Of a stretch of 64,000 bases of DNA, positions 35,082 to 53,019 are shown piece after piece (the first letter of the stretch is position 1; each line of letters starts with the position of its first letter). The notes under the pieces are model-generated. The model ran no database searches, was not told where the DNA came from, and worked only from the letters and a program-made list of their open reading frames with translations. The translations under genes and the position numbers were made by a program. The DNA comes from Halogeometricum limi (lineage in GTDB: Archaea > Halobacteriota > Halobacteria > Halobacteriales > Haloferacaceae), in NCBI RefSeq assembly GCF_900115785.1, contig NZ_FOYS01000003.1, forward strand, positions 372,001-436,000, read 5' to 3'.

Positions 35082-35118
35082 ACCACCACCCCCGCGAATC
35101 CACTGCCACACCCACCTG

Positions 35119-35191
35119 GACACACCCCGTTTCCAGTGTCATCTACGCAGCGACCACCCACTCCCAGACACACCCTGTTTCCAGTGCCATC
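35119..35191. repeat. Two 25-bp direct repeats, 48-bp period, before the Cas5-like gene
   Basis: Copies at 35119-35143 and 35167-35191 differ at two positions and share the core GTTTCCAGTG flanked by GACACACCC and an imperfect CAT box; 23 bp of unrelated sequence separates them. They occupy the only sizeable gap (150 bp) inside the RAMP operon. They might be a transcript-processing or binding site, or a chance tandem duplication. Confidence 0.6.
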
Positions 35192-35231
35192 GCCGAAATC
35201 ACGCGAACCAGGCTCGCTGCCGCCTGTCCAG

Positions 35232-36023: not shown

Positions 36024-36264
36024 CCTCGCTACCCCGCTGATCCTCGTCACCAGCACGCTCCTGCACTGACCGAAGCTCCGACACCGGCGAACACAACTCA
36101 TCCAACCCATCACCACCCGGAACCTCTTCGTCCGGAGCGCTCTCAGACGCACACCGGTCCTGCGCCGACCGCAGCGACGACTCCACTGGCTGCAACTCAT
36201 CGAGACCCGCATCCTCACCCGCACCATCATCTTCCTCACACGGCGGTTCACGCTCGTCACTCAC
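36016..36264 (-). CDS. Small acidic protein of the RAMP operon (gene 3)
   Basis: An 82-aa, Glu/Asp/Ser-rich protein without cysteines in a zinc pattern. It starts at a GTG overlapping the Cas7-like stop (GTGA) and ends 8 bp inside the next gene. It contains two related segments (LDELQPVESSLRSAQDR and LDELCSPVSELRSVQER), an internal duplication of about 30 residues. Possibly a small-subunit-like or DNA-mimic protein; unproven. Confidence 0.55.
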   Translation of the reverse strand: MSDEREPPCEEDDGAGEDAGLDELQPVESSLRSAQDRCASESAPDEEVPGGDGLDELCSPVSELRSVQERAGDEDQRGSEDD

Positions 36265-37235
36265 GCCGACTCACCTCCAGACTCATCATCACCAGTCGGC
36301 ATCGGCACATCACCATCACGAGCCGCCACACGCGCCTGCAACGTCCTGACGAACTCCGGGCGGCACTCCGACGCCCACACCTCATCTTTCTCTTCCATCG
36401 CTTGTGTCGTCGCCTGTGCGCGATTGAACACGCGGCGCACTTCTGACTCCGTGTACAGCGGATTAATCACCCACACATCACCGATCCCCGCCCCGAAATT
36501 CCGCGCACCACCCAGCTGGAACTCGAACTGGTCACTATGCGCGTCAAGGAACGACACGGCCTCCAACAGCAACCCGACGAACTCTGGCTTCAACTCCCGG
36601 AGCGTCAACTTCCACGTCCCCTCAACGTTCCCGAGCACGCCACGATCCGCTTGCCGCAGCGGCTGCCCACCATCCTCCTCGTTCCGCGACCGCACCTGAT
36701 TCGAGATCTGTCGGAAGTGCGCCTCCGCCTCACCGTCCAAGACATCCACCTGCCGCCGGATCGGCGAAAACGACACCGGGCGACGCAACAACTTCCCCGG
36801 CTTGTCACCGAACCCGCCGAACAAATCATAGAGGACACACCCATCCTCGTGTCCGTCAAGGCATGCGCCCTTTTCATGGTACCCCGAGTCGAGATCACGC
36901 TCGTACACGCTCGCACGCATGTAATCCGCATTCGGCTCACCCGGATGGCACGCCGTCGCTCCAGCTGTCTGGACAACATACTCACACCCGTGCCGCAACC
37001 ACCCGCTCAGAGTGAACGGTGAAATTTGTCCTCCGATCTGGTTCATCGGATCGTCCGCTTCGTACCTGTCTGCCGACGCATGATGCCGATCCGTAACGAT
37101 GCCGTCTCCCGGGGACAGCAGGTCGATTTCGAGCCCAACGTACACGTGCGGCAGCAACATCTCCTCCACTGACCGCGGCATGTCCAACTCGACACCGAGA
37201 TGCGAATCCTCAAATCCCGAATCGCTCGACGTCAT
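36261..37235 (-). CDS. RAMP-superfamily protein (Cas7/Csm3-like), RAMP operon gene 2
   Basis: A 324-aa protein. GGQISPFTLSGWLRHG near residue 70 matches the RAMP 'SSLKGxLR' helix, CVLYDLFGGFGDKPGK near residue 130 matches the Csm3/Cmr4-type LFG loop, and LGGARNFGAGIGDVWV near residue 245 is the glycine-rich RAMP loop. It would form the backbone of an RNA-guided or RNA-binding complex. The ATG overlaps the stop of the zinc protein (ATGA). No Asp equivalent to the Csm3 cleavage residue could be assigned with confidence. Confidence 0.7.
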   Translation of the reverse strand: MTSSDSGFEDSHLGVELDMPRSVEEMLLPHVYVGLEIDLLSPGDGIVTDRHHASADRYEADDPMNQIGGQISPFTLSGWLRHGCEYVVQTAGATACHPGEPNADYMRASVYERDLDSGYHEKGACLDGHEDGCVLYDLFGGFGDKPGKLLRRPVSFSPIRRQVDVLDGEAEAHFRQISNQVRSRNEEDGGQPLRQADRGVLGNVEGTWKLTLRELKPEFVGLLLEAVSFLDAHSDQFEFQLGGARNFGAGIGDVWVINPLYTESEVRRVFNRAQATTQAMEEKDEVWASECRPEFVRTLQARVAARDGDVPMPTGDDESGGESA

Positions 37236-37768
37236 CGCTCACCACCCCAGAACAACCCGCGGACCACATCGTCACCTGGCCGACCTGCACGACGCTGCGC
37301 CTCGCCAAAAGACACCTTGGTCAGCGACCCGGGCGTATCCGGTTTCTCAACGTCAGCCGCAACGTTCTCGGGCGAACTACCGCCGTCAGGAACCAGCCTG
37401 ATCGACTTCATCGACGCCGCACTCACCGCCAGAACATCCGGTTCTAGCAGCACCGGCCACGCCGACTGCGTCGCCCCATCAGAACACCACCCTACTCGGC
37501 CCCCAACAATCAACTCCCGCACACCAACCGTGAACACGCCAGGACGCTCATGCCGACCATCACCACACACCACATGGCCGACCTCGTACCGAACCGACCC
37601 CGCCGGCCGGAACACGTACACAACAACCGCAGCACCCTCGTGAAGAGAGGAACCGCACACTTGACACGTCGCGGCCCCCTCCCCGAGCGAAATATACTCT
37701 ATTTGATGTATGTCTTCAATAAGTGGTCTGTCGCTGCCTTCTTGTGTTTCCGAATTTGATTTTCTCAT
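37232..37768 (-). CDS. Zinc-binding protein, RAMP operon gene 1
   Basis: About 178 aa from the ATG at 37766-37768 (MRKSNSETQ); an in-frame GTG at 37867 would add 33 residues and is possible. Zinc ligands are probably ATCQVCGSS, then VVCGDGRH with a following Cys (GWCSD). The middle is beta-rich (VVVYVFRPAGSVRYEVGHVV). First gene of the six-gene overlapping operon. Not recognised as a known Cas protein; it may be a divergent subunit or nucleic-acid-binding adaptor. Confidence 0.6.
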   Translation of the reverse strand: MRKSNSETQEGSDRPLIEDIHQIEYISLGEGAATCQVCGSSLHEGAAVVVYVFRPAGSVRYEVGHVVCGDGRHERPGVFTVGVRELIVGGRVGWCSDGATQSAWPVLLEPDVLAVSAASMKSIRLVPDGGSSPENVAADVEKPDTPGSLTKVSFGEAQRRAGRPGDDVVRGLFWGGER

Positions 37769-37855
37769 GGGTTCTCGGAGTGTATTCGGAACCCAGCCTG
37801 GGTGCTGCAACACCCGGGCACTTCTGTCGATCAGTGCCCAACGGCTGAGTTCGTG

Positions 37856-37907
37856 TCCATTAGTCACTCGTCTATTGGCATAAGCCTTTGGACAACCGAC
37901 TAATGGA
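37856..37907. promoter_or_regulatory. Inverted repeat in the divergent RAMP/wHTH promoter region
   Basis: TCCATTAGTC (37856-37865) and GACTAATGGA (37898-37907) are perfect 10-bp inverted repeats 32 bp apart. Between them lies GGCTTATGCC (minus strand), a plausible promoter element. The layout suggests an operator bound by the wHTH protein encoded on the right. Confidence 0.5.
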
Positions 37908-38204: not shown

Positions 38205-40232
38205 TTACTCTAGTTCGATTGCTTTACTGGCTGCATCGAGCGGATCGGTGTAGAATACGAGCTGGAGCTGATCCAGCAGTTCATCCGGAATCTTTGCCAG
38301 ATCTTCTTTGTTCTTCGCCGGGAGTAACACTGTCTTTGCCCCCGAATCTGCAGCCAACTGCAGCTTATCGATCAAGGAACTCACCGCAACTAATTCACCC
38401 ATGAGACTCATCGCGCCAAGGACAACGGCTTGTGATCGAACTGGTCTATCGAGTATCCCTGAGACTATGCCGACAAGAAGTCCAACGCTCGTTTCGCCGC
38501 CTTCGTTCGCGTCGGATGGATTGAGCACCTGGACGTTGATGTTGTACTCATCCAGCGTTTCATCACGGCGGAGCTCGCGCATATTCGCTTGGAGGTAGTC
38601 GCACGCAGTCTCGAACGACTCTTTCATCTTCTTCCCTGGCGTCCCCGAGATGTTCGTCTTCCCAGAACCGGGGAGTGTCTGGGTTTCGATGCGGAACGGT
38701 GCGTGACGTCCTTCACTTTCGCCGATAGTGTAGACAGTACCTGCTTGTTGCGTCCCGGGGGGAATGAGCGCCTCATCGGCCTCCTCGGGGACCGGAACGT
38801 AGAGTTCTTCCTTCGTGGCTAAGTCCAAATACGAGAACTCGACCGCCCGATACTCCATTCCACCCATCCGCTTCAGCTGTTCTTTGACGCGGCGACGTCC
38901 CTCCATAGCGAATTCGAGGTATTCGCGGAGCTCTTCTTTCGTGTATTCTCCGTGAGGGTGGAGTAATTTGAGCAGACCAGAAACAGTCTTCCGGACGGCC
39001 CTTTCGTCACGTTGGTTCAGGTGGTCTCCGAATGCGAACTCCTCGTTGATCGCATCGCCGTAGGATTCTTTCCGGAGCTCACGGACGAACTCGGCGAAGT
39101 AATCCACGATAAATCCGAACTGATCGCCGAAGAACTCGGAGCGCATCTTCGGGACTTCCCAGCCCGGAAGGTAGTAGTGGAAGCGGTCGATGAGGGCGAG
39201 GTCCTGCATATCATCCGGGAACGGCTCGAAGAGGTGAGAGCTCTTGAGGACACCTTCGACGTCCAAGTCGATGTTTCCAACGTAGACCATCGAGGCCTGG
39301 GCAGTGAGTTCCTCAGTTCCGCGTGAGAAGCTCCCAGACTCCATGTAGTCTTTCAGCATCTGGACTGCTTCCGAGTCGCTGAACTGGAGGCCACCAACCT
39401 CGTCGAAGGCAACAACGTCCCAGCGGCCGACGAGTCCGATGCGTCCCGTGTTGAGGTTCAGAAAGAGCTTCGCAACGGTGGTTTTTCCACCGGAGATGAG
39501 AATCGAGTGGGGACTGATTTCACGGTAGAGATAGCTCTTCCCCGTTCCGCGGGGCCCTAACTCGACGTAGTTGTAGTTGGACTCCACGAGAGGGAGACAC
39601 CGAGTCAGGAAGAGTAGCTTTTCCCGGTCGCTGAACGCGGATGGGTCGTACCCGACACTCTGGAGGAGAAGGTCCATCCACTCGTCGCGTGTGAATTCTC
39701 GACGACGATCCTTCAACTGGTCGAGGTCGAGGTTCGACACCTGGATTGGTTTGAACGACTCGATGCCGAACAGGCTCTTCGGGCTGTTCGCGTTGTCAGG
39801 AAGGTACTCCAGATCGATGATGGCCCAGACACCCCCACCCAGGAGCTTCGGGTGTTTGCTGACGAGATGTTCGTGGACCTCGACATCGTTGAGTCCGAGG
39901 TTGACGAAGGATCCGATGTAGGCGTCTTGCTGCTCGTCGAGTCTGACGGTTACTTTGTCGATGACACGGTACCGCCCTCGCTCGCGTACTTCGCTTTTGA
40001 CGTACTCGGCCTCATCAGGGCGAACGTAGTGCTTCGACAGAATCTGTTTGACTTTTTCGAGCCCCTCCTCCAGTGATTCCTCATCGTCGGTGGCGCAGTA
40101 TTGTCCGATGAGATATTCCAGAACATAGGTGGGGACGTTCACTCCCGACTTGATATCTTGAACGAGATCCTTCCGGACGACGCGTCCGGGAAAGACGTCG
40201 AGAGCTTTCTGATCGACGTCCTCAGTAGTCAT
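38205..40232 (-). CDS. brxL: BREX protein BrxL (Lon-like AAA+ protein)
   Basis: A 675-aa AAA+ protein of the BREX phage-exclusion system. Walker A is GPRGTGKSYLY near residue 222 and Walker B WDVVAFDEVGGL near 270; the C-terminal 170 residues are a Lon-type domain with GGETSVGLLVG (candidate Ser) and SSLIDKLQLAADSGAKTVLLP (candidate Lys). In type 1 BREX BrxL binds DNA as a ring-shaped complex and helps block phage replication. Last gene of the operon, 124 bp after pglZ. Confidence 0.9.
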   Translation of the reverse strand: MTTEDVDQKALDVFPGRVVRKDLVQDIKSGVNVPTYVLEYLIGQYCATDDEESLEEGLEKVKQILSKHYVRPDEAEYVKSEVRERGRYRVIDKVTVRLDEQQDAYIGSFVNLGLNDVEVHEHLVSKHPKLLGGGVWAIIDLEYLPDNANSPKSLFGIESFKPIQVSNLDLDQLKDRRREFTRDEWMDLLLQSVGYDPSAFSDREKLLFLTRCLPLVESNYNYVELGPRGTGKSYLYREISPHSILISGGKTTVAKLFLNLNTGRIGLVGRWDVVAFDEVGGLQFSDSEAVQMLKDYMESGSFSRGTEELTAQASMVYVGNIDLDVEGVLKSSHLFEPFPDDMQDLALIDRFHYYLPGWEVPKMRSEFFGDQFGFIVDYFAEFVRELRKESYGDAINEEFAFGDHLNQRDERAVRKTVSGLLKLLHPHGEYTKEELREYLEFAMEGRRRVKEQLKRMGGMEYRAVEFSYLDLATKEELYVPVPEEADEALIPPGTQQAGTVYTIGESEGRHAPFRIETQTLPGSGKTNISGTPGKKMKESFETACDYLQANMRELRRDETLDEYNINVQVLNPSDANEGGETSVGLLVGIVSGILDRPVRSQAVVLGAMSLMGELVAVSSLIDKLQLAADSGAKTVLLPAKNKEDLAKIPDELLDQLQLVFYTDPLDAASKAIELE

Positions 40233-40356: not shown

Positions 40357-42783
40357 TTAGACGTCGAATCCCATATCGTCGTCTCCGAAGAGTAGATCGA
40401 GCTCTACTGTTTTCCGCGTGATCGTTTCTCGGGTGTCGGTGTCGATGACTTCGAACTGGACGGAACTCTCGCCGGAGATCGCTCCCTGTTTGAGCCGAAC
40501 ACGCTCTCTGTTGGTTCCTGGTGAGATCTCCATCGTTACGGGGTCTGCAACCGGTTCGTCGTCGATGTTCGCGCGGATTTCCAGTATCGGAGCTGGGTCG
40601 AAGGCCACTTGTCCGCTCTTGGCTTCGATCTCGACAGAGATTATCGAGTTCGTGATCGGGTCTGGGATCGAGACGTCGTAACTGATCGACGCGCTTTCTT
40701 CGATCTCGCCAGTGGTCACAGTGAGACACGGGACGAGGAGTTCTTGGAGTGAAATCCCGCCGTGGAAGTACTGCATATTCCCTCCCTGGGCCTTGAAGCA
40801 GGCGACACTCCGTGGGAAGAGCAACTTAAGTTCCGGGGCGTTGATGCCGAGATCGGCCAGCGCATCGGAATCGACCTCGATGAATTCGTCCGTATCGACG
40901 AGTGGAGCATCACTGTCGGCGGCTGCGAATCGTCGTTTGACAACTGGTGCGAGGTCGGGTGATTCGACTTTGAGGTCGTCGGACAACCGATCCGTGTAGA
41001 GGAACCCGTGGTCGCTCGTGATGACGAACCGAGTGTATCCGGCCTGTTTCAGTCGCTGGACTGTCCGTTCGACGTCGTCGACGTGGGAAGCGACCTGGCT
41101 GAAGGCCGCGTCGTCGTCGAGGCTCTCGCCGAGTTTGTCTATCGTTCCAGAGTAGACGACTCGGGGGACAGGATCGGACTCCGTCAAGTCCTCCAACGAG
41201 ATGTTGCTCACCTCGTCCATATCGACCACTTCGAAGCCCGCGGCGCTGAGTCGTTCGACACGGTCTGCTTTCCCTGCCATCTCTTCACCGCCGCTGGTCA
41301 CGACGAGGTCATCATCTTCGAGTGAGAGGCCGAGTTCCCCGGGGAGGTGTGCGGCCATCCCAACCTCGGTGATCGAGGGCAGTGCCGCGCTGACTGCGCT
41401 CAGATCTTGCTCGAAGTCAGTTCGCCGCCCGAGATTCTGTTTGATCGCTTCCGCGAGTTCGTAGCGAAGCCCGTCACAGATGATGATCGCGGTTCCGTCC
41501 TCAAGATCCGCGAACTCATCATAGAACGAGGTCTGGGGTGTCCCGAGGGTCGGATCATCACTCAGGATGTCCGCCAGCGGGCGGTTTACCCCTTGGAGGA
41601 AGGACATGTAGTGTTGCGTGACCCGCTGTTTGACTGTGGTTTCGTTCGGATAGGGGAACGTGGCTTTCTGCGTGGCGTTGATGTACTGCCGATAGGCCGC
41701 ATCGATTTGCCACCACCCGTTGTCACTCGTGTACTTCTGGGCGAGTTCCGAGGAGGAGAGCGTCTTGGCTTCGTCGGCGTCGATGGTTCCGATTCGCTGG
41801 AGGGTTTCGACCGCCAAGACTGGTACCGACCAATCGACGAGGTCCTCGTTGCTCCAGAAGCTATCCTGGCGCTCAGTAACTGTCTGCTGGAGGTCTGCCG
41901 CGATATCGGGGAGGTCGGCGTAGGTCTCCTCAGCGAGTCGTTGCATCACGAGCCGGATGAGACCCATGTCGATACCCTTGAACGCCGTCGTGTCCCAGTG
42001 AATCCGGTCGGAGTCGATGACCGCCTTCGCAAGGTCGTAGTCCTCCGCGATCCGCTGTGCGTAGCGCGTGAACTCGGCAGGAGCGTACTGCTGCCACTCG
42101 TCGCAGAACGCCGCAGCAGCGCGGGTGTCGTCAGCCGCGAGTTCGTCGTACCGTGACGTCGGTGCTCGGCTGGCCACCTCGCCGAAGAGGAGCTGTGTCG
42201 CTAGCTCTTTCGGATCGAGTCCTGCGGTGACACCGTACTCCTCGCGGAGCTGGGCGTCCCAGGCGTCGGCCATCGCGTTGTCCTCGATTGTCTCGCGGTA
42301 CTCTTCCGGGTTCGAAAGGTAGGTTCGAACCCAGTCGTCGGCCGCCGGGCCAGCAGTGTCGAAGAGAACGCAGAAGAACGCCAAGCGTTGAACCTCGCGG
42401 TTCTGTCCCCAGTCCTCGTACGCGTCGGGAATCTCTTCGTCGTGTTCGACGAGGAACTGCGTCACGGGCGTGTCGTCGATGTCCTGGCCGACGCGGTACT
42501 GTCGTCCGAGTGCGTGGACGTCGCGGAACCACTCGGCGTCGTTGCGTGACTCGGGGATGTAGAACAGCCAGTTCCGCTCGTAGTTCGGATCCTCCTCGTG
42601 GAGGCGGCGCTTCAGTTCGAAGTAGCTGCCATCGTAGCGTGCAAGCGTGATACCGTCAAGTGCAGCTTCGACCTCGTCGAGGACGCCCTTGTACTTCTCC
42701 TGGGCATCGTACCACACCCAGACTGGGTGTCGGTCGAACTTCTGCTGGAGTTCAGTGATAATGCTATCCGCGAGATCTCCCAT
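40357..42783 (-). CDS. pglZ: BREX phosphatase-like protein PglZ
   Basis: An 808-aa protein with the alkaline-phosphatase-superfamily core of PglZ: IIICDGLRYELAEAI near residue 432, the SITEVGMAAHLPG segment, and VITSDHGFLYTDRL near 590, whose Asp and His are expected metal ligands. The N-terminal PVWVWYDAQEKYKGVL is also PglZ-like. PglZ is a hallmark of all BREX systems and interacts with PglX. The C-terminal 150 residues form a beta-sandwich-like tail. Preceded by the TBP gene with an 81-bp gap. Confidence 0.92.
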   Translation of the reverse strand: MGDLADSIITELQQKFDRHPVWVWYDAQEKYKGVLDEVEAALDGITLARYDGSYFELKRRLHEEDPNYERNWLFYIPESRNDAEWFRDVHALGRQYRVGQDIDDTPVTQFLVEHDEEIPDAYEDWGQNREVQRLAFFCVLFDTAGPAADDWVRTYLSNPEEYRETIEDNAMADAWDAQLREEYGVTAGLDPKELATQLLFGEVASRAPTSRYDELAADDTRAAAAFCDEWQQYAPAEFTRYAQRIAEDYDLAKAVIDSDRIHWDTTAFKGIDMGLIRLVMQRLAEETYADLPDIAADLQQTVTERQDSFWSNEDLVDWSVPVLAVETLQRIGTIDADEAKTLSSSELAQKYTSDNGWWQIDAAYRQYINATQKATFPYPNETTVKQRVTQHYMSFLQGVNRPLADILSDDPTLGTPQTSFYDEFADLEDGTAIIICDGLRYELAEAIKQNLGRRTDFEQDLSAVSAALPSITEVGMAAHLPGELGLSLEDDDLVVTSGGEEMAGKADRVERLSAAGFEVVDMDEVSNISLEDLTESDPVPRVVYSGTIDKLGESLDDDAAFSQVASHVDDVERTVQRLKQAGYTRFVITSDHGFLYTDRLSDDLKVESPDLAPVVKRRFAAADSDAPLVDTDEFIEVDSDALADLGINAPELKLLFPRSVACFKAQGGNMQYFHGGISLQELLVPCLTVTTGEIEESASISYDVSIPDPITNSIISVEIEAKSGQVAFDPAPILEIRANIDDEPVADPVTMEISPGTNRERVRLKQGAISGESSVQFEVIDTDTRETITRKTVELDLLFGDDDMGFDV

Positions 42784-42864
42784 TAAAACTCCTTTCCTAG
42801 GTTAGGCTGAAGGTTGTTTCGGGTAGTCTTCCGGTCACCTATGGACGACAACCATTCCGTCACA

Positions 42865-43404
42865 TTATACTAGAGCATCTAAATCTTCCTTCAAGCTCTG
42901 AAATGCTTCCTCTGCCATATCAATGTCCTTTGCTCCAGTGACCACCACTTTACCGGATGAAAATATCAAAATCACTACAGGGGTGTCGTCAGGTCGAAAA
43001 ACAAGACCGGGGAACTGTTCAGGCTCATACTCCGTATACTCTAATCCAAGACCAATTGCGAGCGCGTTTAGGTTCTGGACCTGGTCTAATTCTCCCGTAC
43101 ACACGTAATTCTGCATAGAGAACCATTCATCCTCGGGTTCACCGAGAACCCCCTCATCAGTAAGGAGTTTCAGGAATTGCTTTCTACAGCTATATGCTTC
43201 TTCATCGGATTTTGACCCAGTGATAATGTACTTCCCCGTCCTGTATACCGTTATTAGTGGCTCCACTCCTTCGAGCCTTACATACGCTCCTGGATACTTA
43301 TCTGGGTCAAACTCAACTTCCTTGACATCAGTTGCTAGGCGATTTAGATCAATCTCTATCCCTAAATCACCCGACCCTACTGCATTAACTACTTCAAGAT
43401 TCAT
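42865..43404 (-). CDS. TATA-binding protein homologue inside the BREX operon
   Basis: A 179-aa protein with the two pseudo-symmetric saddle repeats of TBP: PGAYVRLEGVEPLITVYRTG, KYIITGSKSDEEAY in the first half, and PGLVFRPDDTPVVILIFSSG, KVVVTGAKDIDMAEEAF in the second. Length matches archaeal TBPs (about 185 aa), and the N-terminus (NLEVVNAVGSGDLGIEIDLN) aligns with the usual start. It is AT-rich, like pglX before it (18-bp gap), and is followed by pglZ. Haloarchaea use several TBPs to direct alternative promoters, so it may drive BREX or host promoters on infection. Role inferred. Confidence 0.88.
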   Translation of the reverse strand: MNLEVVNAVGSGDLGIEIDLNRLATDVKEVEFDPDKYPGAYVRLEGVEPLITVYRTGKYIITGSKSDEEAYSCRKQFLKLLTDEGVLGEPEDEWFSMQNYVCTGELDQVQNLNALAIGLGLEYTEYEPEQFPGLVFRPDDTPVVILIFSSGKVVVTGAKDIDMAEEAFQSLKEDLDALV

Positions 43405-43422
43405 GATTGAAAAGACACTATC

Positions 43423-46400
43423 TCATCGGGAATAGCTGGATTTCAATTTCGGAAGACCTGTTTCGAGCACTTTGTACTGATCCCACTCTTTGATGTTCTC
43501 CCAGATTCCATTTTCCTCGTCAACTTTGACACCGTTATCGATCATTTCGTCGATGGTGGCCCGGAATTGCCTGATATCGTCAAGACTATTCTGGACTTCC
43601 TCCTTTCGGTTTAGTAGCTGTTTATCCGGGTTGGTATCGTTGGTTTGAGCATTCAGCGTATCAAGTTCGTTTTCGAGTCTTTCTATACGAGTATCGAGAT
43701 ATCGCCCCCGAAGTTTTGGAAGAGTATTTCCGTCAATATTGTGATAATAAAGGAAGCAGCTAAACGCACCATTAGGGCTCTCTAACTGCCAGTAAATCGG
43801 AATGCGCTGTCCTCGTCGTCGGTATTCCTTGCAATGATGGTACCGGAAGAAGCGGTCCCTCAGCCACGCAACCGGATCCTTTCCTAGGTCGTCGGCTATT
43901 CTTCTAGCAATAGATTCCGGATTATTGAATGCGAGATCAATACATTTGTTCAGCAGCTCTGGGATGTTGTTGTCGAATTCATCGTCAAACACAAGAATGC
44001 CATCGCTTACGGGTGACAAGCCGTTCAATTCCCACCGACCCATCATACAGCCGAGGAACCCAGATAATAGGTTTGCTGTTCTTTCGGTCTTTTCATCACT
44101 TGTATATAGGTCGTTATTTTTCCTAATATGCGCAATAGTATATGGGGAGATGCCGGTCTTTTCGGATATGTCTCGTATTTCCTCACCGCTATTATTCTCT
44201 ACTTGAGAGATAACTTCTCGAAATTCAGCTTCGGGTACTACCTCCGATTTGACCTCGGCCTCGTTAGAAACCAGATCTCCTGCATTCGATAGGTGGGGAT
44301 ATTGATACAAATTGTCAGGCAGCTCGTCGTAGGCTCGTTCTTTTGTTACCTCGCTCATTCCATAGCTCTCGAATACGATCTCATCTATTCGTCCATGAAT
44401 AACATCTGTCTGAGCATCTAAATAGTCAATTTTGAATAGAATATTCGTATATTCTTTTATATATGAATTAAAATCGAATTCTTTCTTCGTTTCTTTGTAC
44501 GTGTACCTTTCTTTTCGCGCTGCTATGGCTGCTTTGACCAGCTCTTCCGTATCTGTTCCCTGTAATGCAATTGGTCGAATCGGTAACCTCGCACCATCGC
44601 CACTCTTGAAATTCAATCCTGGATTCAGTCCGTTCATGATAAACCTTGAGAGAGAAGAGTTCAGATAGCCGAGTACCCGGTAGTCGCGGTCTCGGTCACC
44701 GGTAAACACGAAGTGTGCCTTATTACTAAATAGATGGTCCGACGAGTGCAGACGGGCAGTGAAATGTTTGGCAAAATCGCGGAAGGTTATTCCATTTTCC
44801 CAATAGAAGTCTTCGTTTCTGATATGGCTTCCGTCATGGTCTCTTATCTTCTTTCCATTTGATTCCCAGAGAGCTACCTGTTCGTAAGATTCACAATAAA
44901 GTTCTCCGTCGCCGCTTTTTGCGATCCACTCGTACTGGTCACCAATCTTGTCAAGATCAATTTCCCACCAGTTTCGAAGGAAAAGGTCGTCATCCCCTGT
45001 AGTTAGCCCCTCCATCACATCTGCCTCGTCTCCTAAGGTCGGTTCGTCAATGAAGAGCTGAAGAACTTCTTGACCAAACCAATAGATAAAGGGGGTTCGG
45101 TCGATCTCTCTGAAGGAGCTCTGGTCCAAAGCATAGATGTCTGTCGATTCGACACCAGAGCGCTGATTTCGTGTAACTCTGTTTAAGCTCTCAATCTTGT
45201 CGTCGGAATCCGTTAAACGGGCGAACTTAGATTTGACTCTCAGATTGTTAGTAATGCGCATTGAGAAGGCGACATTCATGTGGCCTTCATCACGGTGTTC
45301 GAGATGAGCAACATCGGTTATATTCGCTTCATCAAGGATGTAAGGACGAAGTTTCCGGAAGCTATAAAGAAACATAAAACTTTCCATGGTGATCATGGAA
45401 ACATACCCATCATCACCTGCAAAGTCCATACATCGTTCAATAAATGCCGCATAAATATCTCGACTTCCGATATAGTTTTCTTTTATAAAATTCTTTAAAG
45501 AGTCCGACATTTTGTCCCGGTAGAGGTACGGAGGATTACTTAGTACAACATCATACTCGTCTCGAAGGACGTCTAGGAGCTCAACGGTTTTCCCGACTTC
45601 GTTGGCGAACATCTCCTCTACGGGATCATCCTGCTCTAAAGCGGCCGAGGCAATTTCTTGGACGTTCTCAACAAGTCTGTTTTTCAGTTCTTCCCAAGTT
45701 TGCTCTTCTCCGCCAGATACGAACGTCGATTGAGTCGTCAGATTGCCATCGTCAGTGAACTGTGCTTGCCCTTTGGATTCAAACGTATCTCGATAGTCCT
45801 CTAGAAGCTCATCAACTTGGTTCTCAATCCGAACGAGGCTTCCCCATTCGCGGATGTTATCGAAACTACGCCAAATCTGTTCTAAGATCTCTTCTTCTAG
45901 CTCAGAATTCGCTTTATCTAAGACTTCTTTCTTCCTTTCCCCGTTAATCAATACTGCGTCCGCTGAGACGATGTTCAACTGCGGGATTGTAATATCGGGC
46001 GACTTATCTTTTGCCTTCAGATAAAGTGATAATGCGGCTATTTGGGCTGCACCAGAATCAATGTCGATTCCGTAGAGGTTGTTACGGAGGATTTCACGTG
46101 GGATGTACTCTTTCGGAATTTCCCCTTCTTCTAAATACATCTGATAGAAAACGTCGAATGCGTAGAACAGCATATGACCGCTTCCGCATGCCGGGTCAAG
46201 TACTGTGATATCTTCGACCTCTTTCTCTTCTCGGTCAATCAATGATTCTTGCAGTGGAGCGAGATAGAAGCAGTTCTCCTCAGCATCGATATTCGTCCGT
46301 TCACCTTGCATTTCGAGCCATGTTCGACCAAGTGAATTATCGACCATCCACTCAACGATATAACGCGGCGTGAATAGCTGGGTCTTTGTGGCGATATCCG

Positions 46401-47094
46401 TTCCACCGATCTTGTAGTTCTCTTCATCGACGCGCTGGTCAATGTCTTCACGTTCTTCTTCACCGAAGTACTGGTACACCCAACCCAAGGCTTCGTCGCT
46501 CTCCCAAGCTTCATCGTCGATAGCGTCTAATTTATCGAGAATATCCCCGCGTACGTGCGGGTCGAGATCTATAGCGGTGTGGTCGGACTCCTCGAAGATC
46601 ATCCGGATTTCCGCACCAATCTCCAGATACGCAAGGTCAAGTGCGGCACCGAAGCCGTCATCAGGTGCGTTTGTGAGTTCGCCAGCGATTTCGGCCACGG
46701 TGTGGTGCATGTACGACCGGTTGCCGTACTCTGCTCGCTCGGTGATGGTTTCCTCAACGAGGCCGCGAACTTCGATTGTCTTCAGTGCGACAAACCGGTT
46801 GAGGTAGGTCTTCGTAGCTTCGCGGACGTAGTTGGTGATCGACCGCTCCAAATCGCCTTCCGTGGATTCAAGTTCCCGTTCGATGGCGGCATCCAGCGTT
46901 CGTCGAGTGTGGCGGTCTTCTGCTGAGAGATGGGACAGGTCTTCGAGTGGGAGACGCTTGTTCTCGTAGATGCCGTACTTTTCGAGCTGGCGTCTAAGTT
47001 CGTCTTCGAGCGTGTGGCGCGTGCTGAGGATGGTGCTTCGAATAGTCGAGCGCTGATCCGATGAGAGACCGGGTTGACCGTGTGTCGTGGACAT
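43423..47094 (-). CDS. pglX: BREX DNA adenine methyltransferase PglX
   Basis: A 1223-aa class I N6-adenine methyltransferase from the ATG at 47092-47094 (MSTTHGQPG); nine upstream codons are open but not needed. SAM motif I is DPACGSGHMLFYAFD near residue 300, and the catalytic motif IV is SNPPYLYRDK near 520. Long helical N- and C-terminal parts are usual for PglX, which methylates host DNA to mark it as self. Codons and base composition are AT-richer than in brxC or pglZ. A minus-strand TATA-like CAATATAAGA at 47198-47207 could give it its own promoter. Confidence 0.92.
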   Translation of the reverse strand: MSTTHGQPGLSSDQRSTIRSTILSTRHTLEDELRRQLEKYGIYENKRLPLEDLSHLSAEDRHTRRTLDAAIERELESTEGDLERSITNYVREATKTYLNRFVALKTIEVRGLVEETITERAEYGNRSYMHHTVAEIAGELTNAPDDGFGAALDLAYLEIGAEIRMIFEESDHTAIDLDPHVRGDILDKLDAIDDEAWESDEALGWVYQYFGEEEREDIDQRVDEENYKIGGTDIATKTQLFTPRYIVEWMVDNSLGRTWLEMQGERTNIDAEENCFYLAPLQESLIDREEKEVEDITVLDPACGSGHMLFYAFDVFYQMYLEEGEIPKEYIPREILRNNLYGIDIDSGAAQIAALSLYLKAKDKSPDITIPQLNIVSADAVLINGERKKEVLDKANSELEEEILEQIWRSFDNIREWGSLVRIENQVDELLEDYRDTFESKGQAQFTDDGNLTTQSTFVSGGEEQTWEELKNRLVENVQEIASAALEQDDPVEEMFANEVGKTVELLDVLRDEYDVVLSNPPYLYRDKMSDSLKNFIKENYIGSRDIYAAFIERCMDFAGDDGYVSMITMESFMFLYSFRKLRPYILDEANITDVAHLEHRDEGHMNVAFSMRITNNLRVKSKFARLTDSDDKIESLNRVTRNQRSGVESTDIYALDQSSFREIDRTPFIYWFGQEVLQLFIDEPTLGDEADVMEGLTTGDDDLFLRNWWEIDLDKIGDQYEWIAKSGDGELYCESYEQVALWESNGKKIRDHDGSHIRNEDFYWENGITFRDFAKHFTARLHSSDHLFSNKAHFVFTGDRDRDYRVLGYLNSSLSRFIMNGLNPGLNFKSGDGARLPIRPIALQGTDTEELVKAAIAARKERYTYKETKKEFDFNSYIKEYTNILFKIDYLDAQTDVIHGRIDEIVFESYGMSEVTKERAYDELPDNLYQYPHLSNAGDLVSNEAEVKSEVVPEAEFREVISQVENNSGEEIRDISEKTGISPYTIAHIRKNNDLYTSDEKTERTANLLSGFLGCMMGRWELNGLSPVSDGILVFDDEFDNNIPELLNKCIDLAFNNPESIARRIADDLGKDPVAWLRDRFFRYHHCKEYRRRGQRIPIYWQLESPNGAFSCFLYYHNIDGNTLPKLRGRYLDTRIERLENELDTLNAQTNDTNPDKQLLNRKEEVQNSLDDIRQFRATIDEMIDNGVKVDEENGIWENIKEWDQYKVLETGLPKLKSSYSR

Positions 47095-47197
47095 GGATAT
47101 CAGAGGGTTGCGCACTGCCACGAAACGGGCGGGACGGCAGTACGCTGTGTCGGGATTCCCGCCCTCGATGACATACCAGCGACAAGCAGTTGGCGTG

Positions 47198-47207
47198 TCT
47201 TATATTG
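47198..47207 (-). promoter_or_regulatory. Possible internal promoter before pglX
   Basis: CAATATAAGA on the minus strand in the 220-bp gap between the membrane-protein gene and pglX; this is the largest gap in the BREX operon. A start site about 25 bp downstream would leave an 80-nt leader. Confidence 0.35.
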
Positions 47208-47314
47208 TGGGGGTCAGTATCCGTCCCATTGCGTTATCAATACAAACGCGTAATTCTTGGCCGCTCTGTCGAAGAGGTAGAGTCAGATATTGACGAGTAC
47301 GTTCACACCTACGG

Positions 47315-47989
47315 TTAAACGGAAATTACGCTCTTGACACCGCTGACTACGCGGTTCAGTATATTTCTATTTTCACGGGTTTGTGGCTGGACGGTAATCC
47401 CCCCTTCATCAAGATACCGTTCGTACCTTTGGATATGGTTCCCTCTGGGACCGTCAATCCTCTTGTTGTAGTTGACAATCTGACCGAGTTTATTCTCATC
47501 CTGAGTGATTGTCAGATCCGAAACGGTTGGTAGAGGAATGAAAACTCGCGTTTCATCTGCTTGTATGATGGTCTTTTTATCGATCAGACTCGATCTGTGA
47601 TAGATGTAGAGAGACCGACGGTACGCTGTGGAGTTGGAATAATTATGAACCCAAGGCTCGTCGAAATCCATCCTTGACTGATAATCCTCATCTTCGAGTC
47701 GGACATCTGTATTTTTCTTGTATGTGTATATCCCTTCAGAGTCCTTGTACTCCCATTCATCTGGACTGGAGGAATAAACCGTCTCTAAGATCTCATCTTT
47801 CCTCGGGCTCCTGCCCGAAGCCAACGACCAGAGTGCAACCAGCAATGCAGAGGCCGGGATGACGGTTAGTAATGTTCCGAGATTTATTCCGTAGCGTGCT
47901 CCCGCCACTAGAGCGATAGCTATTACAATTCCAATTGGGATGACCCGGAGGAGAAACCGACGGATTTTCCGCTTAGTAGATTTTTGCAT
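47315..47989 (-). CDS. Two-helix membrane protein in the BREX operon
   Basis: A 224-aa protein. A basic N-terminus (KSTKRKIRRFLLRV) leads into two membrane helices (about residues 12-30 and 36-57), followed by a soluble domain of about 160 residues with beta-rich stretches (AYRRSLYIYHRSSLIDKK, ETRVFIPLPTVSDLTIT). I do not recognise the family. AT-rich like pglX and the TBP gene. It lies 21 bp after brxC, so is co-transcribed; membrane-bound BREX accessory proteins are not part of the canonical set. Confidence 0.65.
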   Translation of the reverse strand: MQKSTKRKIRRFLLRVIPIGIVIAIALVAGARYGINLGTLLTVIPASALLVALWSLASGRSPRKDEILETVYSSSPDEWEYKDSEGIYTYKKNTDVRLEDEDYQSRMDFDEPWVHNYSNSTAYRRSLYIYHRSSLIDKKTIIQADETRVFIPLPTVSDLTITQDENKLGQIVNYNKRIDGPRGNHIQRYERYLDEGGITVQPQTRENRNILNRVVSGVKSVISV

Positions 47990-48010
47990 TGTCAGTCAAT
48001 CGTTTCCAGT

Positions 48011-51000
48011 CTACCGGAACCGAATCTCTACGTCTCCGTCTTGATCGAGGAGCGACTCGATCTCTCCCCGAAGTTCGCTGATTGGTGCGTCGATGTCTTC
48101 GGGGTCAGTCACGACGACGCTCCCGAAGATGTCGTCGATGTCGACGCTCTCGCGGACCGTTCCATCGTCGTCGTCATCGTCCAGGTCGTCGATTTGGGTT
48201 TTCGCCCCACTCTCGTACGCGTCGACGGTCTGGATGTGTTCGATGAGGCGAGTGAGCGAGGGATCCGGGTTGATGTGGTCCTTGTTCGAGATGTCAAGAT
48301 CGACCGAGCCGTCGCCCTGCCGCTCCGTCAGATCCGACAGGGCCGAATCGAGATCGGTCTCGTCGATGTCGGAGCCGGCGTATGCTTTCACCGAGTCAAT
48401 GGAGCTGGTGTAGGTTTCGTGCCGTTTCTCGTACAGTGCTTCGTAGGTCGCGGTGAAGGCTTCTGCTGCGGCTCGGTAGTCCGTCTTGACGTTGTTCCAC
48501 TGGCTGATGACGCCCTCGGTGTCCAGCGTGTTCTTGACGCGGTCGGCGGCGTCACGCGCGTCGTCGCTGATGTCCACGAGTGCAGCGTGATCATCCGCCT
48601 CGTCGACGAGTGATTCCCACTCGGTCGTGATGAATCGCTGAATCGTCTCGTACTCTTTCAGGCGGTTTTCGCCCCCGTTCTCACCGCAGAACTCGGCGAC
48701 GTCTTTCGCGGTTTTGGTGAGGCTTTCAAGTTCGTTCTCGAACTCAACGAACTGCTTGATGCGCTTGGCCGACGTGGGCTGCTGGAGTAGGTTCTTCAGT
48801 CTGGTTTGGAACTGCTCGACGTCGTCCGCGAGTGGGAAGTCTACCCGACGGAGCTGCGAGAGGAGGGTGCTGGTGGTCGAGACCCAATTGTTGGCTTCCT
48901 CTCGAATGCCTTCATCGACGGCTTGGTCCGTGGATTTGACCTTGCGGTCGAACAGGCGGTCGAGGAGCTGCTTGGCATCCGTGCGCGTGTCGATATCGAC
49001 GGTCTCGCGCTCGTCGAAGGAGGTGGACTTGAACTTCGTGACCTGGGTGAACAGCTCCTGTGCGCCGTCTTCCGTGTACGTCCCGTAGGTTCGTTCCTTG
49101 TACGTCGGGATGATCGAGCCGTTGCGGAAGAGCACGGCCGCGGCGAGCCTGACGACTTCGCGGCTCCAGCCGTACGGCGGTTCGGCGAAGTGGTCGATTA
49201 GGTCGCTTCCGGTGCGGGACTCGCCTGCTTTCTCACGGCGTTGGATCTCGTCTTCGACTTCGGAGGAGATGCGGGCTTCGGCGATGAGCTCGCCGTCCTG
49301 GACCACACCTAGGTCGGAGAAGACCGACGGGTTCGACGAGCCGTCGAGGTCACCGAAGATCTGCTCGATGTGCCGGTCTTTGACCGTCGCGGAGCCGTGT
49401 TTGAAGCTGGTGAAGACCTTCGGGATGGCGTTGTCCGTCTTCCGGGCGACGAGCGAGGTAAGCGAGGTGCTCGTGGTGTCGAACTCCTCGGTATCGCCGT
49501 TATAGATGAGGACGCCGCGCTGGAAGCTGCGTTTGAATTCCCGTTCGACCTCGTTGCGGAGGCGCTGGAGGTCTTCCTGCTTCTGGCCGAGGGCTTCCTG
49601 TTCCTCCTGGCTGAGTTCGTTGCCGCGCTTTTCTTTGACGACGGTGTTGATCTGGAAGATCGACTTCAGCTTCTCGTAGATGTCGTGCTGTTTCTCGTTG
49701 TCAGCGATCCAGTACAGCGTGCCGTCCTCGCTGAAGCTTTGCGTTTTCAGGCCGTCCGGGTCGAGGTCCTCGTATCGCTGGTAGATCGGCGAGTACGTTT
49801 TGAGGTCGATGTGGCCCTTCGACGTGATTTCCTCGCCGTCGATGCTCAGGTTCACCTGGAACGTCTTCCCCTGGTAGTTGACGCGGGACGTTTCGTCGAG
49901 GATGTCGTTCAGGAAGCGTTTGGACGAGCGCCGGATGTCACCTGGGCCGACTTCGATGCCTTTGATCTCGTTTTCGAGTTCCCGCTCGGTCTCACGGAGG
50001 AACCGGTAGCCTTCTTCGCTCCGACCGACGTAGCCGGCGTTGACGAGAGCGTCGAGCGTCTCTTCGACGTCACCTTCTAGTTGCTGCGTGGGGCCGAGCT
50101 CCGTCTGGAGTGACGTCGCAATGTTGTCGGCCGTGTTCGGAATCCACGGAAGCTGCTGGAGGAGGTACAGGGACTTGAGGACGCGTCGTGCGATTTCCGG
50201 GTCGGCGTCTTTCGGTCGAGCTTCGCGGATCGACTTGACGTCACTGCTGGGGATGTCGTTGCTGATCTCATCGAAGATCATGTCCAGCGTGACGAGCGCC
50301 CCGAGTTCGTCGTTGTAGAGGTGGTCCTCGTCTTTGAGAACGCTCTGGGTGACGTCGATCAGTGTGCGTTCACTCCCTGCGAGCTGGTCGTCCGAGCCCT
50401 TCCCCAGAGCCTTGAACATCTCCGGAAGGATATCGAGTTGGTAGGGAAGGAACGGGTAGCAGTCGATGAAGTTCTCCTCGGTAATCGGCTTCAGGCTCTG
50501 ACTAGAGTCGAGTTTGTATCTCGCGGACAGAATCCCCTCGTGCTGGTCGTACAGATCGCCGAGGATACCTCTGAACTCGCCTTTCTTGCTGAGGACACGG
50601 TCACGGACGACCTTGTCGAGGTTCTCGGAGGTGAGGTCAAATCGATGTGGGAACCGGTCGATGACTTTCGACTCCTCGGCTTCTTTCTCCAAGACACCGG
50701 GGATGAGTTGCTGGAGTTGTTCCTGTGAGGTAACTCCGAGGAAGACCTTGCCTTTGCCTTTCTGTCCGAACTCCTCGACGATACTCTGCAGTTCCAAGAG
50801 CAATTGCCCGTCGTCCCCGATGAACTGCGAAATCTCGTCGATGAACACGAAGTACCGACAGTTGTCGCCGGTATCGGCTTCCCGCTGTTCGACGTAATCC
50901 ACGATGTCTTCGGCGAGCGTGGACGCGTTGATCAGAACGTTGTCCTGAACGTCGTCGATTGCGCGGGCCGCATCATCTTCATCATCGAACTCATCGGTGG

Positions 51001-51655
51001 CCTCGACTAATGCGGTCTCCATGTCGGACCGGACGAACATGGCGTCCTTGCGGGCTTCCGTCCAGTCTTTCCCGGTGTTCGCTTCGATGGCGTCGACGAA
51101 CTCGTCGTACACGCCACGTGATTCGAGTTCCTGCTCCATTTGCGCGACCCAGGGCATCGAGGCGTAGCCACGGGAGATGTTGAATTCGCGGTGGATAATC
51201 TCCGTGATGGACTCGCTCCCGGATGCGTCGGCTTTCGCGCCGATCTGGAACATCAGCACCTCGGAATCGAACTTCTGGGTGACAGACGAGACCGCTCCGT
51301 CGAGCATCTCGTTGCCCTCGATTCGATCCCGGAACATCTCGGCAGCGTGTGTATCCTCGAACTCACGGTTTTCGAGGATGTGCCCGAGGATTTTCATGTA
51401 GTGGCTTTTCCCCGAGCCGAAGAAGCCGGACACCCACATCCCGACGTCTTCGGTCTGTGCGTGTTCCGTATCGATGACGGCCTCTAACGCGTCCGAGAAG
51501 TGCCGTTCGAGCTGTGGCGTAAGGATGTACTCTTCGAGTTCTTTCTTGACGACGCTCGGATCGTCGTTATCGACTTTGACGACCCGGTCGATCTTCCGGT
51601 TGATCGGCCGGTAGAAGATCTCGTGAATCTGGTGTGATGTGGTAGTGTCACTCAT
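48011..51655 (-). CDS. brxC: BREX ATPase BrxC
   Basis: A 1214-aa P-loop protein. The N-terminal IHEIFYRPINRKIDRVVKVD is typical for BrxC/PglY, Walker A is SGFFGSGKSHYMKIL near residue 80, and YFVFIDEISQFIGDDGQLL near 265 is the Walker B region. A long helical C-terminal part ends in an acidic DDDDDDG stretch. BrxC is a core BREX component of unknown precise activity that binds other Brx proteins. The start overlaps brxB by 8 bp. Confidence 0.92.
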   Translation of the reverse strand: MSDTTTSHQIHEIFYRPINRKIDRVVKVDNDDPSVVKKELEEYILTPQLERHFSDALEAVIDTEHAQTEDVGMWVSGFFGSGKSHYMKILGHILENREFEDTHAAEMFRDRIEGNEMLDGAVSSVTQKFDSEVLMFQIGAKADASGSESITEIIHREFNISRGYASMPWVAQMEQELESRGVYDEFVDAIEANTGKDWTEARKDAMFVRSDMETALVEATDEFDDEDDAARAIDDVQDNVLINASTLAEDIVDYVEQREADTGDNCRYFVFIDEISQFIGDDGQLLLELQSIVEEFGQKGKGKVFLGVTSQEQLQQLIPGVLEKEAEESKVIDRFPHRFDLTSENLDKVVRDRVLSKKGEFRGILGDLYDQHEGILSARYKLDSSQSLKPITEENFIDCYPFLPYQLDILPEMFKALGKGSDDQLAGSERTLIDVTQSVLKDEDHLYNDELGALVTLDMIFDEISNDIPSSDVKSIREARPKDADPEIARRVLKSLYLLQQLPWIPNTADNIATSLQTELGPTQQLEGDVEETLDALVNAGYVGRSEEGYRFLRETERELENEIKGIEVGPGDIRRSSKRFLNDILDETSRVNYQGKTFQVNLSIDGEEITSKGHIDLKTYSPIYQRYEDLDPDGLKTQSFSEDGTLYWIADNEKQHDIYEKLKSIFQINTVVKEKRGNELSQEEQEALGQKQEDLQRLRNEVEREFKRSFQRGVLIYNGDTEEFDTTSTSLTSLVARKTDNAIPKVFTSFKHGSATVKDRHIEQIFGDLDGSSNPSVFSDLGVVQDGELIAEARISSEVEDEIQRREKAGESRTGSDLIDHFAEPPYGWSREVVRLAAAVLFRNGSIIPTYKERTYGTYTEDGAQELFTQVTKFKSTSFDERETVDIDTRTDAKQLLDRLFDRKVKSTDQAVDEGIREEANNWVSTTSTLLSQLRRVDFPLADDVEQFQTRLKNLLQQPTSAKRIKQFVEFENELESLTKTAKDVAEFCGENGGENRLKEYETIQRFITTEWESLVDEADDHAALVDISDDARDAADRVKNTLDTEGVISQWNNVKTDYRAAAEAFTATYEALYEKRHETYTSSIDSVKAYAGSDIDETDLDSALSDLTERQGDGSVDLDISNKDHINPDPSLTRLIEHIQTVDAYESGAKTQIDDLDDDDDDGTVRESVDIDDIFGSVVVTDPEDIDAPISELRGEIESLLDQDGDVEIRFR

Positions 51656-52217
51656 GTCCGATCACCCTTGCGCGGTAATATGTTCCTTCAGATTCATCGA
51701 GGAATCTTAAGCTCTTGTCATCGACTTTCGCCGGGTAGCAGAACACGATGGGCGTGTCGTCCGGTGTATTCGTCTCTAATTGACCCATGAGTGTGGAGGC
51801 ACTGGCGAACGGGTACAGAATACCCATCCGGTAGATAATCACCGTGTCAGCGTCTTCTGCAGCCGTTGCGATGGCGGACGCTAACTGCCCCATCTCGCCA
51901 TCATCAAGAAGCGACGATTTCAGTCCGTCGAGTAAACGGTCTCGATCCCGACGTTCGAGATCGATCACGTTCTCCAAGATACCGCGGTCTTCGAGGATGC
52001 TGAAGACCAGTTCGCGCATATCGATTCCTGCGACGGTTTGGTCGTGGTACTCCAGTTTCTCGATGAGGTTTCGAACCTCTTCGTCGACTTCGAGTTCGTC
52101 ACCAGGGTCGTAGGTGAAGACGATGAAGGGGACCCCAGCGCGCTTTCCGACTTCGTCTCGATCATCTCTGACGAGTCGTTCTACTTCTTCGAGCCGTGCC
52201 TGAAAGTCAGAAAGCAT
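51648..52217 (-). CDS. brxB: BREX protein BrxB (DUF1788)
   Basis: A 189-aa protein with the DUF1788 pattern: FIVFTYDPGDELEVDEEVRN, then VIIYRMGILYPFASASTLM and PIVFCYPAKVDDKSLRFLDE near the C-terminus. BrxB is a small conserved partner of BrxC and PglZ. It overlaps brxA by 11 bp and brxC by 8 bp, so translation is coupled. Confidence 0.9.
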   Translation of the reverse strand: MLSDFQARLEEVERLVRDDRDEVGKRAGVPFIVFTYDPGDELEVDEEVRNLIEKLEYHDQTVAGIDMRELVFSILEDRGILENVIDLERRDRDRLLDGLKSSLLDDGEMGQLASAIATAAEDADTVIIYRMGILYPFASASTLMGQLETNTPDDTPIVFCYPAKVDDKSLRFLDESEGTYYRARVIGHE

Positions 52218-53019
52218 CTATTAGGTCCTCGATGCTGTCATGCTTTGTAATTAGTCGTTCTGTCGAGCCGCGCTTCTCGTAGCTCACATACTGCGGTGAG
52301 ATGTCTCGAACCCGGCGCTGGACTTCCGATTCGTTCATAAGGAATAACTTCCAGTCGTCGTGTTCGATGACGTCTGATGCGGACTTCGCTCCCTTCTGAA
52401 AGAGCCGGTAGACGACGTACGCGACAGTCTCGTCGGGGACATAGGTGACGGCGAATTCCTTGCGTTGGGTGCCTTCTAGAAGCCCGTAGTTCCGGAGTGC
52501 GGTGAGGTACTTCGTGGCGGCTTCGTTGATCGTCGATTCGGACCGGTCACGCAGGTCGGCGTAGTCCTCTTGAATCGATTCGATGAACGTGACGATGTCC
52601 GTAGCTTGAACGGAGAGGGTTCCCCGTTCGAATTCAGGGTACAGGAAATCGAGGGTGACGAGGTGGATGAATGGATCTTGCGCGAATTCGTAGTAGAGAC
52701 ACCAGTCGGTTACGTCGCTCTGGACATCAGCCGACATGATCTTCATCAGCGGTGTCTCTGTGTACTCCTCTTTATCAGGGATGTGGCGACGTGTAACCTC
52801 GCGGAGAATGTTTGTTCGATACTCGTCCGTATTCTTGTTCAGGATGTTCTCTTCGACGACCCGTCGCTCCAGTTCTTCGTACGACTCGCAATCGACGTAC
52901 GTGCGAAGGATGCGTTTCGTCTCGTCAATGTACGTACTGTGATGGGCGATTTTCGGATCGAGACTCGCCGCCGCGTCTGTTTCTTCGTCATCCTTGGGCT
53001 CGATATGCTCGTTACTCAT
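52207..53019 (-). CDS. brxA: BREX protein BrxA (DUF1819)
   Basis: A 270-aa helical DNA-binding protein of the DUF1819 family: TKRILRTYVDCESYEELERR, ILREVTRRHIP, and LMKIMSADVQSDVTDWCLYY are characteristic, and residues 185-265 include a winged-helix-like part (AATKYLTALRNYGLLEG). Second gene of the operon, 9 bp after brxE. Confidence 0.88.
   Translation of the reverse strand: MSNEHIEPKDDEETDAAASLDPKIAHHSTYIDETKRILRTYVDCESYEELERRVVEENILNKNTDEYRTNILREVTRRHIPDKEEYTETPLMKIMSADVQSDVTDWCLYYEFAQDPFIHLVTLDFLYPEFERGTLSVQATDIVTFIESIQEDYADLRDRSESTINEAATKYLTALRNYGLLEGTQRKEFAVTYVPDETVAYVVYRLFQKGAKSASDVIEHDDWKLFLMNESEVQRRVRDISPQYVSYEKRGSTERLITKHDSIEDLIDAF

Follow-up and report, generated by a model that had tools for sequence, protein, structure and literature searches.

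A restriction-associated TATA-binding protein in a haloarchaeal BREX operon, from a lineage linked to DNA methyltransferase systems

A type 1 BREX operon in the window, the 64,000-nucleotide stretch of Halogeometricum limi DNA analysed here, carries between pglX and pglZ a gene for a TATA-binding protein (TBP) of a divergent lineage, the restriction-associated or TbpC-like TBPs. We are nearly certain of this identity and of the association of the lineage with DNA methyltransferase systems. For the whole picture we favour, tentatively and at somewhat less than even confidence, an optional, exchangeable accessory of methyltransferase-based defence that would act as a dedicated transcription factor for its own locus.

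The window protein has a genuine TBP fold. The preliminary description had read both saddle repeats from the sequence, and the two tandem repeats are borne out by Pfam, in which the PF00352 match falls into two stretches, and by a structure model (Table 1). The AlphaFold model was computed from an alignment of 10 TBPs (pTM 0.82), used in place of a single-sequence prediction that gave a pLDDT of only 36, and its superposition on solved TBPs spans 176 residues at 1.6 Å. The best sequence match in the PDB is the TBP of Methanocaldococcus jannaschii (2e-34). In the sequence alignment, the protein carries the stirrup EYEPEQF together with asparagines N7 and N99, which in solved TBP complexes contact TFB and the DNA minor groove, respectively. 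Its intercalating residues read YY/FF (first repeat/second repeat), with tyrosine at both first-repeat phenylalanine positions, which makes it a TBP homologue whose DNA face has changed and not a canonical TBP. The same genome has two further TBP genes, both of the housekeeping type. GC content is 45% in the TBP gene and 47% in pglX, and 58% in the window.

The host operon contains the complete BREX type 1 set, with brxA, brxB, brxC, pglX, pglZ and brxL all present according to Pfam and PADLOC. Read along the minus strand, the genes are a brxE-like ORF, brxA, brxB, brxC, a 224-aa ORF, pglX, TBP, pglZ and brxL. As the preliminary description had it, the TBP gene lies between pglX and pglZ on the same strand with short gaps, which measure 18 bp from pglX to TBP and 81 bp from TBP to pglZ. 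The brxE-like ORF has no family match of its own in Pfam or PADLOC.

Table 1. Features of the BREX operon, in window coordinates
Feature	Coordinates	Strand	Evidence
Restriction-associated (TbpC-like) TATA-binding protein, 179 aa, ATG start	42865..43404	-	Pfam PF00352 1e-43; pLDDT 93.6; Z 22 against solved TBPs; YY/FF
pglX, BREX-1 adenine-specific DNA methyltransferase, GTG start as listed	43423..47121	-	PADLOC PglX 4e-156; Pfam Eco57I 4e-28
pglZ	40357..42783	-	Pfam PglZ 6e-22; PADLOC PglZ 1e-64
brxL	38205..40232	-	PADLOC BrxL 3e-286
224-aa ORF between brxC and pglX	47315..47989	-	Weak PDC-S50 similarity, PADLOC 4e-8; no Pfam match
brxC	48011..51655	-	PADLOC BrxC 4e-176
brxB	51648..52217	-	Pfam BrxB 5e-17
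brxA	52207..53019	-	Pfam BrxA 6e-15
brxE-like ORF, 241 aa	53029..53754	-	Haloarcula halophila homologue at the same place annotated BrxE
Exchangeable cassette: pglX and flanking slots, TBP in the pglX–pglZ slot	42784..48010	.	DNA homology to seven relatives breaks at both edges

The TBP gene is part of a segment that differs between otherwise similar operons. Seven relatives were compared (loci L042, L045, L046, L049, L051, L052 and L053). Their BREX core shows 78–95% DNA identity to that of the window up to the start of pglZ (42783; 42823 in one), the alignment picks up again at the brxC stop (48011), and inside these limits alignment is restricted to the two ends of pglX. The window TBP gene has no counterpart at the DNA level among these relatives; L049 holds a very different TBP in the corresponding position, and L052, with a core nearly identical to that of the window, has none. 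Elsewhere, the slots flanking pglX hold Mrr-like, NucS-like, GmrSD or SMC-type proteins or unknowns, or are empty; the occupants of these BREX slots include nucleases and ATPases. From the homology breaks around pglX and the varied slot contents, we conclude that the TBP belongs to an exchangeable pglX cassette. Related proteins without an assigned family recur between pglX and pglZ of BREX-1 loci L037, L046 and L053; those of L046 and L053 have 353 aa with FYKYGKPVG near the N-terminus, and a Pfam scan of the L037 and L046 copies gave no match.

Two other parts of the window on the minus strand also merit description. Beside the BREX operon, at 33487–37867, lie proteins without Pfam match together with an RNase_H_2 exonuclease-like protein, a module that may resemble CRISPR-type RAMP modules; by sequence similarity, such a module also occurs beside BREX in Haloarcula japonica (L070, 15513–19462) and beside a type IIG–TBP pair (L142, 4333–6691). 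Further along, at 26900–31930, a protein of 1676 aa that has sacsin and NOV_C domains is probably the product of another defence gene.

TBPs recur at haloarchaeal BREX loci. In a class-wide BREX-1 census of 391 genomes, full-length BrxL is present in 22 (23 copies, our own included), along with one split and one fragmentary copy. We retrieved 25 BREX-1 regions, and with the window 24 loci show a pglX–pglZ junction: a TBP stands beside pglX or pglZ at 7 of these (window counted) and is lacking at 17. Haloarcula halophila has a TBP in the same slot that is 88% identical to that of the window, and the BREX-1 locus of Haloarcula japonica has two TBPs. Given the H. halophila counterpart and the 7 of 24 junctions, the placement is not a chance event. 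On the H. halophila plasmid NZ_CP119561.1, two BREX-1 operons (L047 and L058) are separated by about 298 kb; their pglX genes differ in the middle, and their TBP proteins are identical. BREX-5 PglX was found in 61 of the 391 genomes; in a sample of 40 regions, corresponding to 47 of the 77 listed matches, four have a TBP and 36 do not. The TBP is divergent from pglX in two named BREX-5 plasmid loci, one of which shares its contig with one of the four. The search of other haloarchaeal BREX loci proposed in the preliminary description thus returned TBPs in both types, and the gene is not, as had been allowed for, confined to this strain.

The link between TBP and BREX that had been proposed holds in that the gene lies inside a BREX operon; it proves too narrow, because the partners are DNA-methyltransferase defence systems generally, namely BREX-1, BREX-5, type I, type IIG, methyltransferase–helicase and DUF1156 systems and viral loci. 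Plasmid relatives of the window TBP are encoded in methyltransferase–helicase–TBP operons; at the locus of one relative, type I R and TBP come after a methyltransferase, and further relatives adjoin a DUF1156 methyltransferase or an N-6 methylase. In halovirus HRTV-9, a type IIG gene lies 16 bp upstream of the TBP gene, and in halovirus HJTV-2 the TBP is found at a restriction–modification (R-M) locus. Two plasmid TBPs have no adjoining methyltransferase, and both are canonical FF/FF. The plasmid records inspected were 15 of the 79 with a TBP match.

The association also appears in loci that were not selected for it. Across 26 genomes of the class, we compared TBPs at least 64% identical to an own housekeeping TBP with those at most 45% identical. 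An Eco57I or N6_Mtase domain lies within 7 kb of 20 of the 23 divergent TBPs, several of which are partial matches, and of none of the 41 housekeeping-like TBPs; one own housekeeping-like TBP (C4) has a methyltransferase domain 7.5 kb away, just past the limit. With an independent profile, an NPPY-type methyltransferase is found within 6 kb of 50 of the 60 closest relatives of the window TBP (outside H. halophila, among the 391 genomes) and of 0 of 20 controls, all from the window's family. The remaining ten relatives comprise six that adjoin the helicase of the system, two near N6_N4 methyltransferases and two at contig ends; one of the two N6_N4 loci also has, on our reading, a cytosine-type methyltransferase. 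In the converse count, such a TBP is present at 14 of 66 methyltransferase loci, which makes it optional, and at 7 of 13 strong HsdM-type genes.

Within these loci, the TBP gene most often follows its partner. Scored with our own methyltransferase and helicase profiles, 44 of 74 TBP ORFs follow a methyltransferase or helicase gene on their own strand, with 26 of the 44 within 30 bp or overlapping; another 11 precede such a gene on that strand, 13 are in divergent and 2 in convergent orientation, and for 4 these profiles give no partner. A dedicated TFB partner is not typical, as one TFB query matched only L134 and L146 among 80 TBP and 25 BREX regions. We also searched 69 genomes from elsewhere in the phylum, outside Halobacteria; the best matches there, with no more than 46% identity across most of their length, resemble ordinary TBPs. 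A scan of viral contigs with the window TBP alone as query found nothing, and the marine viral TBPs L215–L221 have no such methyltransferase adjoining. A second viral pair is on the viral contig of L213, where an Eco57I/TaqI_C methyltransferase gene is followed 16 bp later by a TBP frame, 52% identical, that contains a stop codon.

The restriction-associated TBPs are set apart from housekeeping TBPs by their place in a tree and by residue pattern. A quick tree, with long branches and unsure details, splits 95 of them from 22 housekeeping rows by a branch with support 98. The window TBP groups with the YY/FF TBP of pHS4/pNRC100, apart from the housekeeping rows; the residue pattern suggests that this pHS4/pNRC100 gene is tbpC. 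The BREX-1 TBPs fall at four separate places in the tree, some very diverged, which points to repeated recruitment. In residue tallies that count near-identical rows, YY/FF is found in 67 of the 95 restriction-associated TBPs, and FF/FF in none of them versus all 22 housekeeping TBPs; both stirrup glutamates are kept in 92 of the 95 and both asparagines in 84. The dN/dS ratio has a median of 0.12 and a highest value of 0.26 over 106 close, non-independent pairs of restriction-associated TBPs, and a median of 0.058 over 182 housekeeping pairs; between the window and H. halophila TBPs it is 0.12. The restriction-associated TBPs are under purifying selection, which speaks against decay. Where a locus has two or three such TBPs, 12 of 13 loci have exactly one YY/FF protein and at least one different protein, and three second proteins show the opposite change, FF/S(P/A). 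Two-TBP systems, usually with one YY/FF member, include L168, L181, L182, L185, L188, L040 and others.

One candidate promoter signal was set aside. A 21-bp element, TAGTCTAAGTAAAGACTATAT, lies upstream of methyltransferase–helicase(–TBP) operons, with 30 sites in 29 of the 391 genomes and 0 for the reversed control. By our comparison of positions, 13 of the 30 sites share a contig with such a TBP, about 7–9 kb away, and 4 more are in genomes where contig ends may cut the operon. Downstream of the remaining 13 sites, four stretches contain a methyltransferase and a helicase, both complete, and no TBP; nor is there a TBP in the nine others (two of the 13 stretches are short, 1.3 and 4.2 kb). 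In 18 of 20 loci read, the element is followed by a small ORF (63–71 aa as called) and then the methyltransferase; in the remaining two, it precedes a 70-aa ORF related to the small one and then a different gene. Because the element tracks this small gene and not the TBP, we rejected it as a TBP-specific promoter and dropped it as evidence on the TBP. At L078, L082, L083 and the 30 sites, an inverted repeat, TAGTC-N8-GACTA, and then TATAT precede by about 30 bp the small ORF, which itself stands ahead of a large methyltransferase gene. The element looks like an operator of the small protein, which in our reading may resemble AbrB/MazE regulators (best Pfam E value for MazE, 0.77). Inspection by eye of 11 divergent intergenic regions gave no motif common to all, and we found no TBP-specific promoter motif that might serve as an autoregulatory operator.

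Local control of transcription by the restriction-associated TBP is quite possible, and we rank it first among the functions considered. The protein would retain an altered form of binding to TFB and TATA-like DNA; serving its own defence locus as a dedicated transcription factor, it would tune the expression of methyltransferase and restriction genes as these genes move between hosts, a role that would parallel those of C proteins and BrxR in bacteria. The downstream same-strand placement, frequently with overlap or a minimal gap, and the divergent arrangements both fit local control. The existence of the same BREX cores and methyltransferase–helicase operons without TBP argues against a required factor. 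Because the same systems occur without it, one of them behind the same promoter element, we place only modest weight on a dedicated factor; these TBP-less cores and operons also lead us to rank a transcription-acting effector second and a complex subunit third. The kept TFB stirrup and the altered DNA contacts would fit both promoter switching and a decoy, the two functions that the preliminary description had offered.

An antiviral effector seems rather unlikely: here a 'poison' or alternative TBP would join host TFB at the promoters of the invader, giving a poor or altered initiation complex, and would retard early viral transcription while methylation-based exclusion is at work. Its appeal lies in the combination of a kept TFB stirrup with a changed first intercalating pair, in the optional presence of the TBP, in BREX slots shared with Mrr-, NucS- and GmrSD-type effectors and in a DUF262 gene that follows the TBP in two plasmid loci; by analogy, the nuclease and ATPase slot occupants would favour an effector over a regulator. 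However, there is no sign that the protein prefers promoters of invaders, the host too should be burdened if the TBP is made constitutively beside the methyltransferase, and the same gene pair is carried by a halovirus. We would give about the same limited credence to a broader proposal, in which a general transcription factor has been drawn into haloarchaeal immunity: the dedicated TBP lineage, carried along with methyltransferase defence systems and their viral copies, would be an immune component whose alternative TFB–TBP complexes, at times with two distinct TBPs from a single system (three pairs have complementary changes, one per repeat), would skew how the invader or the defence locus is transcribed. 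A structural role, in which the TBP would be part of the methyltransferase or helicase complex and bend or mark DNA for it without acting in transcription, is unlikely: it would explain the 26 of 74 ORFs close to or overlapping an upstream same-strand partner gene, the kept DNA-contact asparagines and the methyltransferase as the neighbour common to all system types, but it is hard to see what such a complex would do with the near-invariant TFB stirrup, 13 of the 74 are divergent from the partner, and the same complexes exist without TBP.

Least probable, and in our view quite improbable, is a mobile or decaying spare TBP that accumulates in defence islands, the 'nonfunctional' option of Becker et al. 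2014. The four tree places of the BREX-1 TBPs, with some very diverged, agree with such hitchhiking, as do the partial copies among the TBPs and the stop codon of the viral L213 copy. The low dN/dS values, the conserved Tyr–Tyr replacement (unlike random loss), the overlap of TBP genes with partner genes and the lack of linkage for all 41 housekeeping-like TBPs argue against it. There remains a deletion of tbpC in strain NRC-1, from a 2007 paper by Coker and DasSarma. In the available part of that paper, the deletion had no apparent phenotype (PMC2121645), which agrees with hitchhiking. On pNRC100 of NRC-1, however, the methyltransferase of the operon with the TbpC-like TBP is split by ISH3, whereas it is whole in strain R1; because the partner operon carries this insertion, the knockout strain may be a poor test.

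Spare haloarchaeal TBPs have so far been discussed as environmental promoter switches; our data say that most of the divergent ones among them belong to restriction and BREX loci instead. The TbpC question of 2014 thereby gains a concrete, testable answer. If the function is confirmed, a core initiation factor would be built into a methyltransferase-based antivirus system. A divergent TBP can serve as a marker for finding such defence systems.

In line with the remark of the preliminary description that BREX operons are not known to carry a general transcription factor, the text of a 2026 BREX survey (PMC12839542) contains neither TBP nor TATA, and our literature searches, mostly of papers outside subscription journals, returned no report of a link between TBP, methyltransferase and defence. 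The texts of two R-M surveys (PMC6471742, PMC10609329) and of a halovirus paper (PMC8651126) are likewise without TBP or TATA. Precedents for a TBP fold recruited into a conflict system are the TOTE and TALON systems, which, in the accessible part of the source, combine a TBP domain with TPR and OB or cold-shock proteins (PMC12458937). The window locus differs from these in being methyltransferase-based and without TPR or OB/cold-shock partners; in the eight operon ORFs scanned with Pfam, the TBP included, no TPR or cold-shock domain was found at E 0.001, and brxL was scanned with PADLOC.

Bacterial R-M systems have controllers, the C proteins, of the helix-turn-helix type. C proteins and BrxR resemble the window TBP as small DNA-binding proteins whose genes adjoin methyltransferase or restriction genes and are frequently coupled to them; in the part of the source available, BrxR is helix-turn-helix (PMC9122589), whereas the window protein has the TBP fold. 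The comparison with C proteins is one of working only, as the window protein lacks a helix-turn-helix. With BREX types 1 and 5 the locus shares the host operon core, and differs in having a TBP as accessory. A close likeness is to the TbpC-like homologues of Becker et al. 2014 (PMC4230888), which, in the portion available, have lost the first Phe pair and keep the C-terminal one, as in the window TBP; TbpC is described there as possibly nonfunctional or very specialised, and restriction, methyltransferase and helicase are not mentioned with these TBPs in that portion. The relative on Halobacterium pNRC100/pHS4 is 52% identical to the window TBP and also YY/FF. What distinguishes the TbpC-like TBPs as described here is that they are tied to methyltransferase systems.
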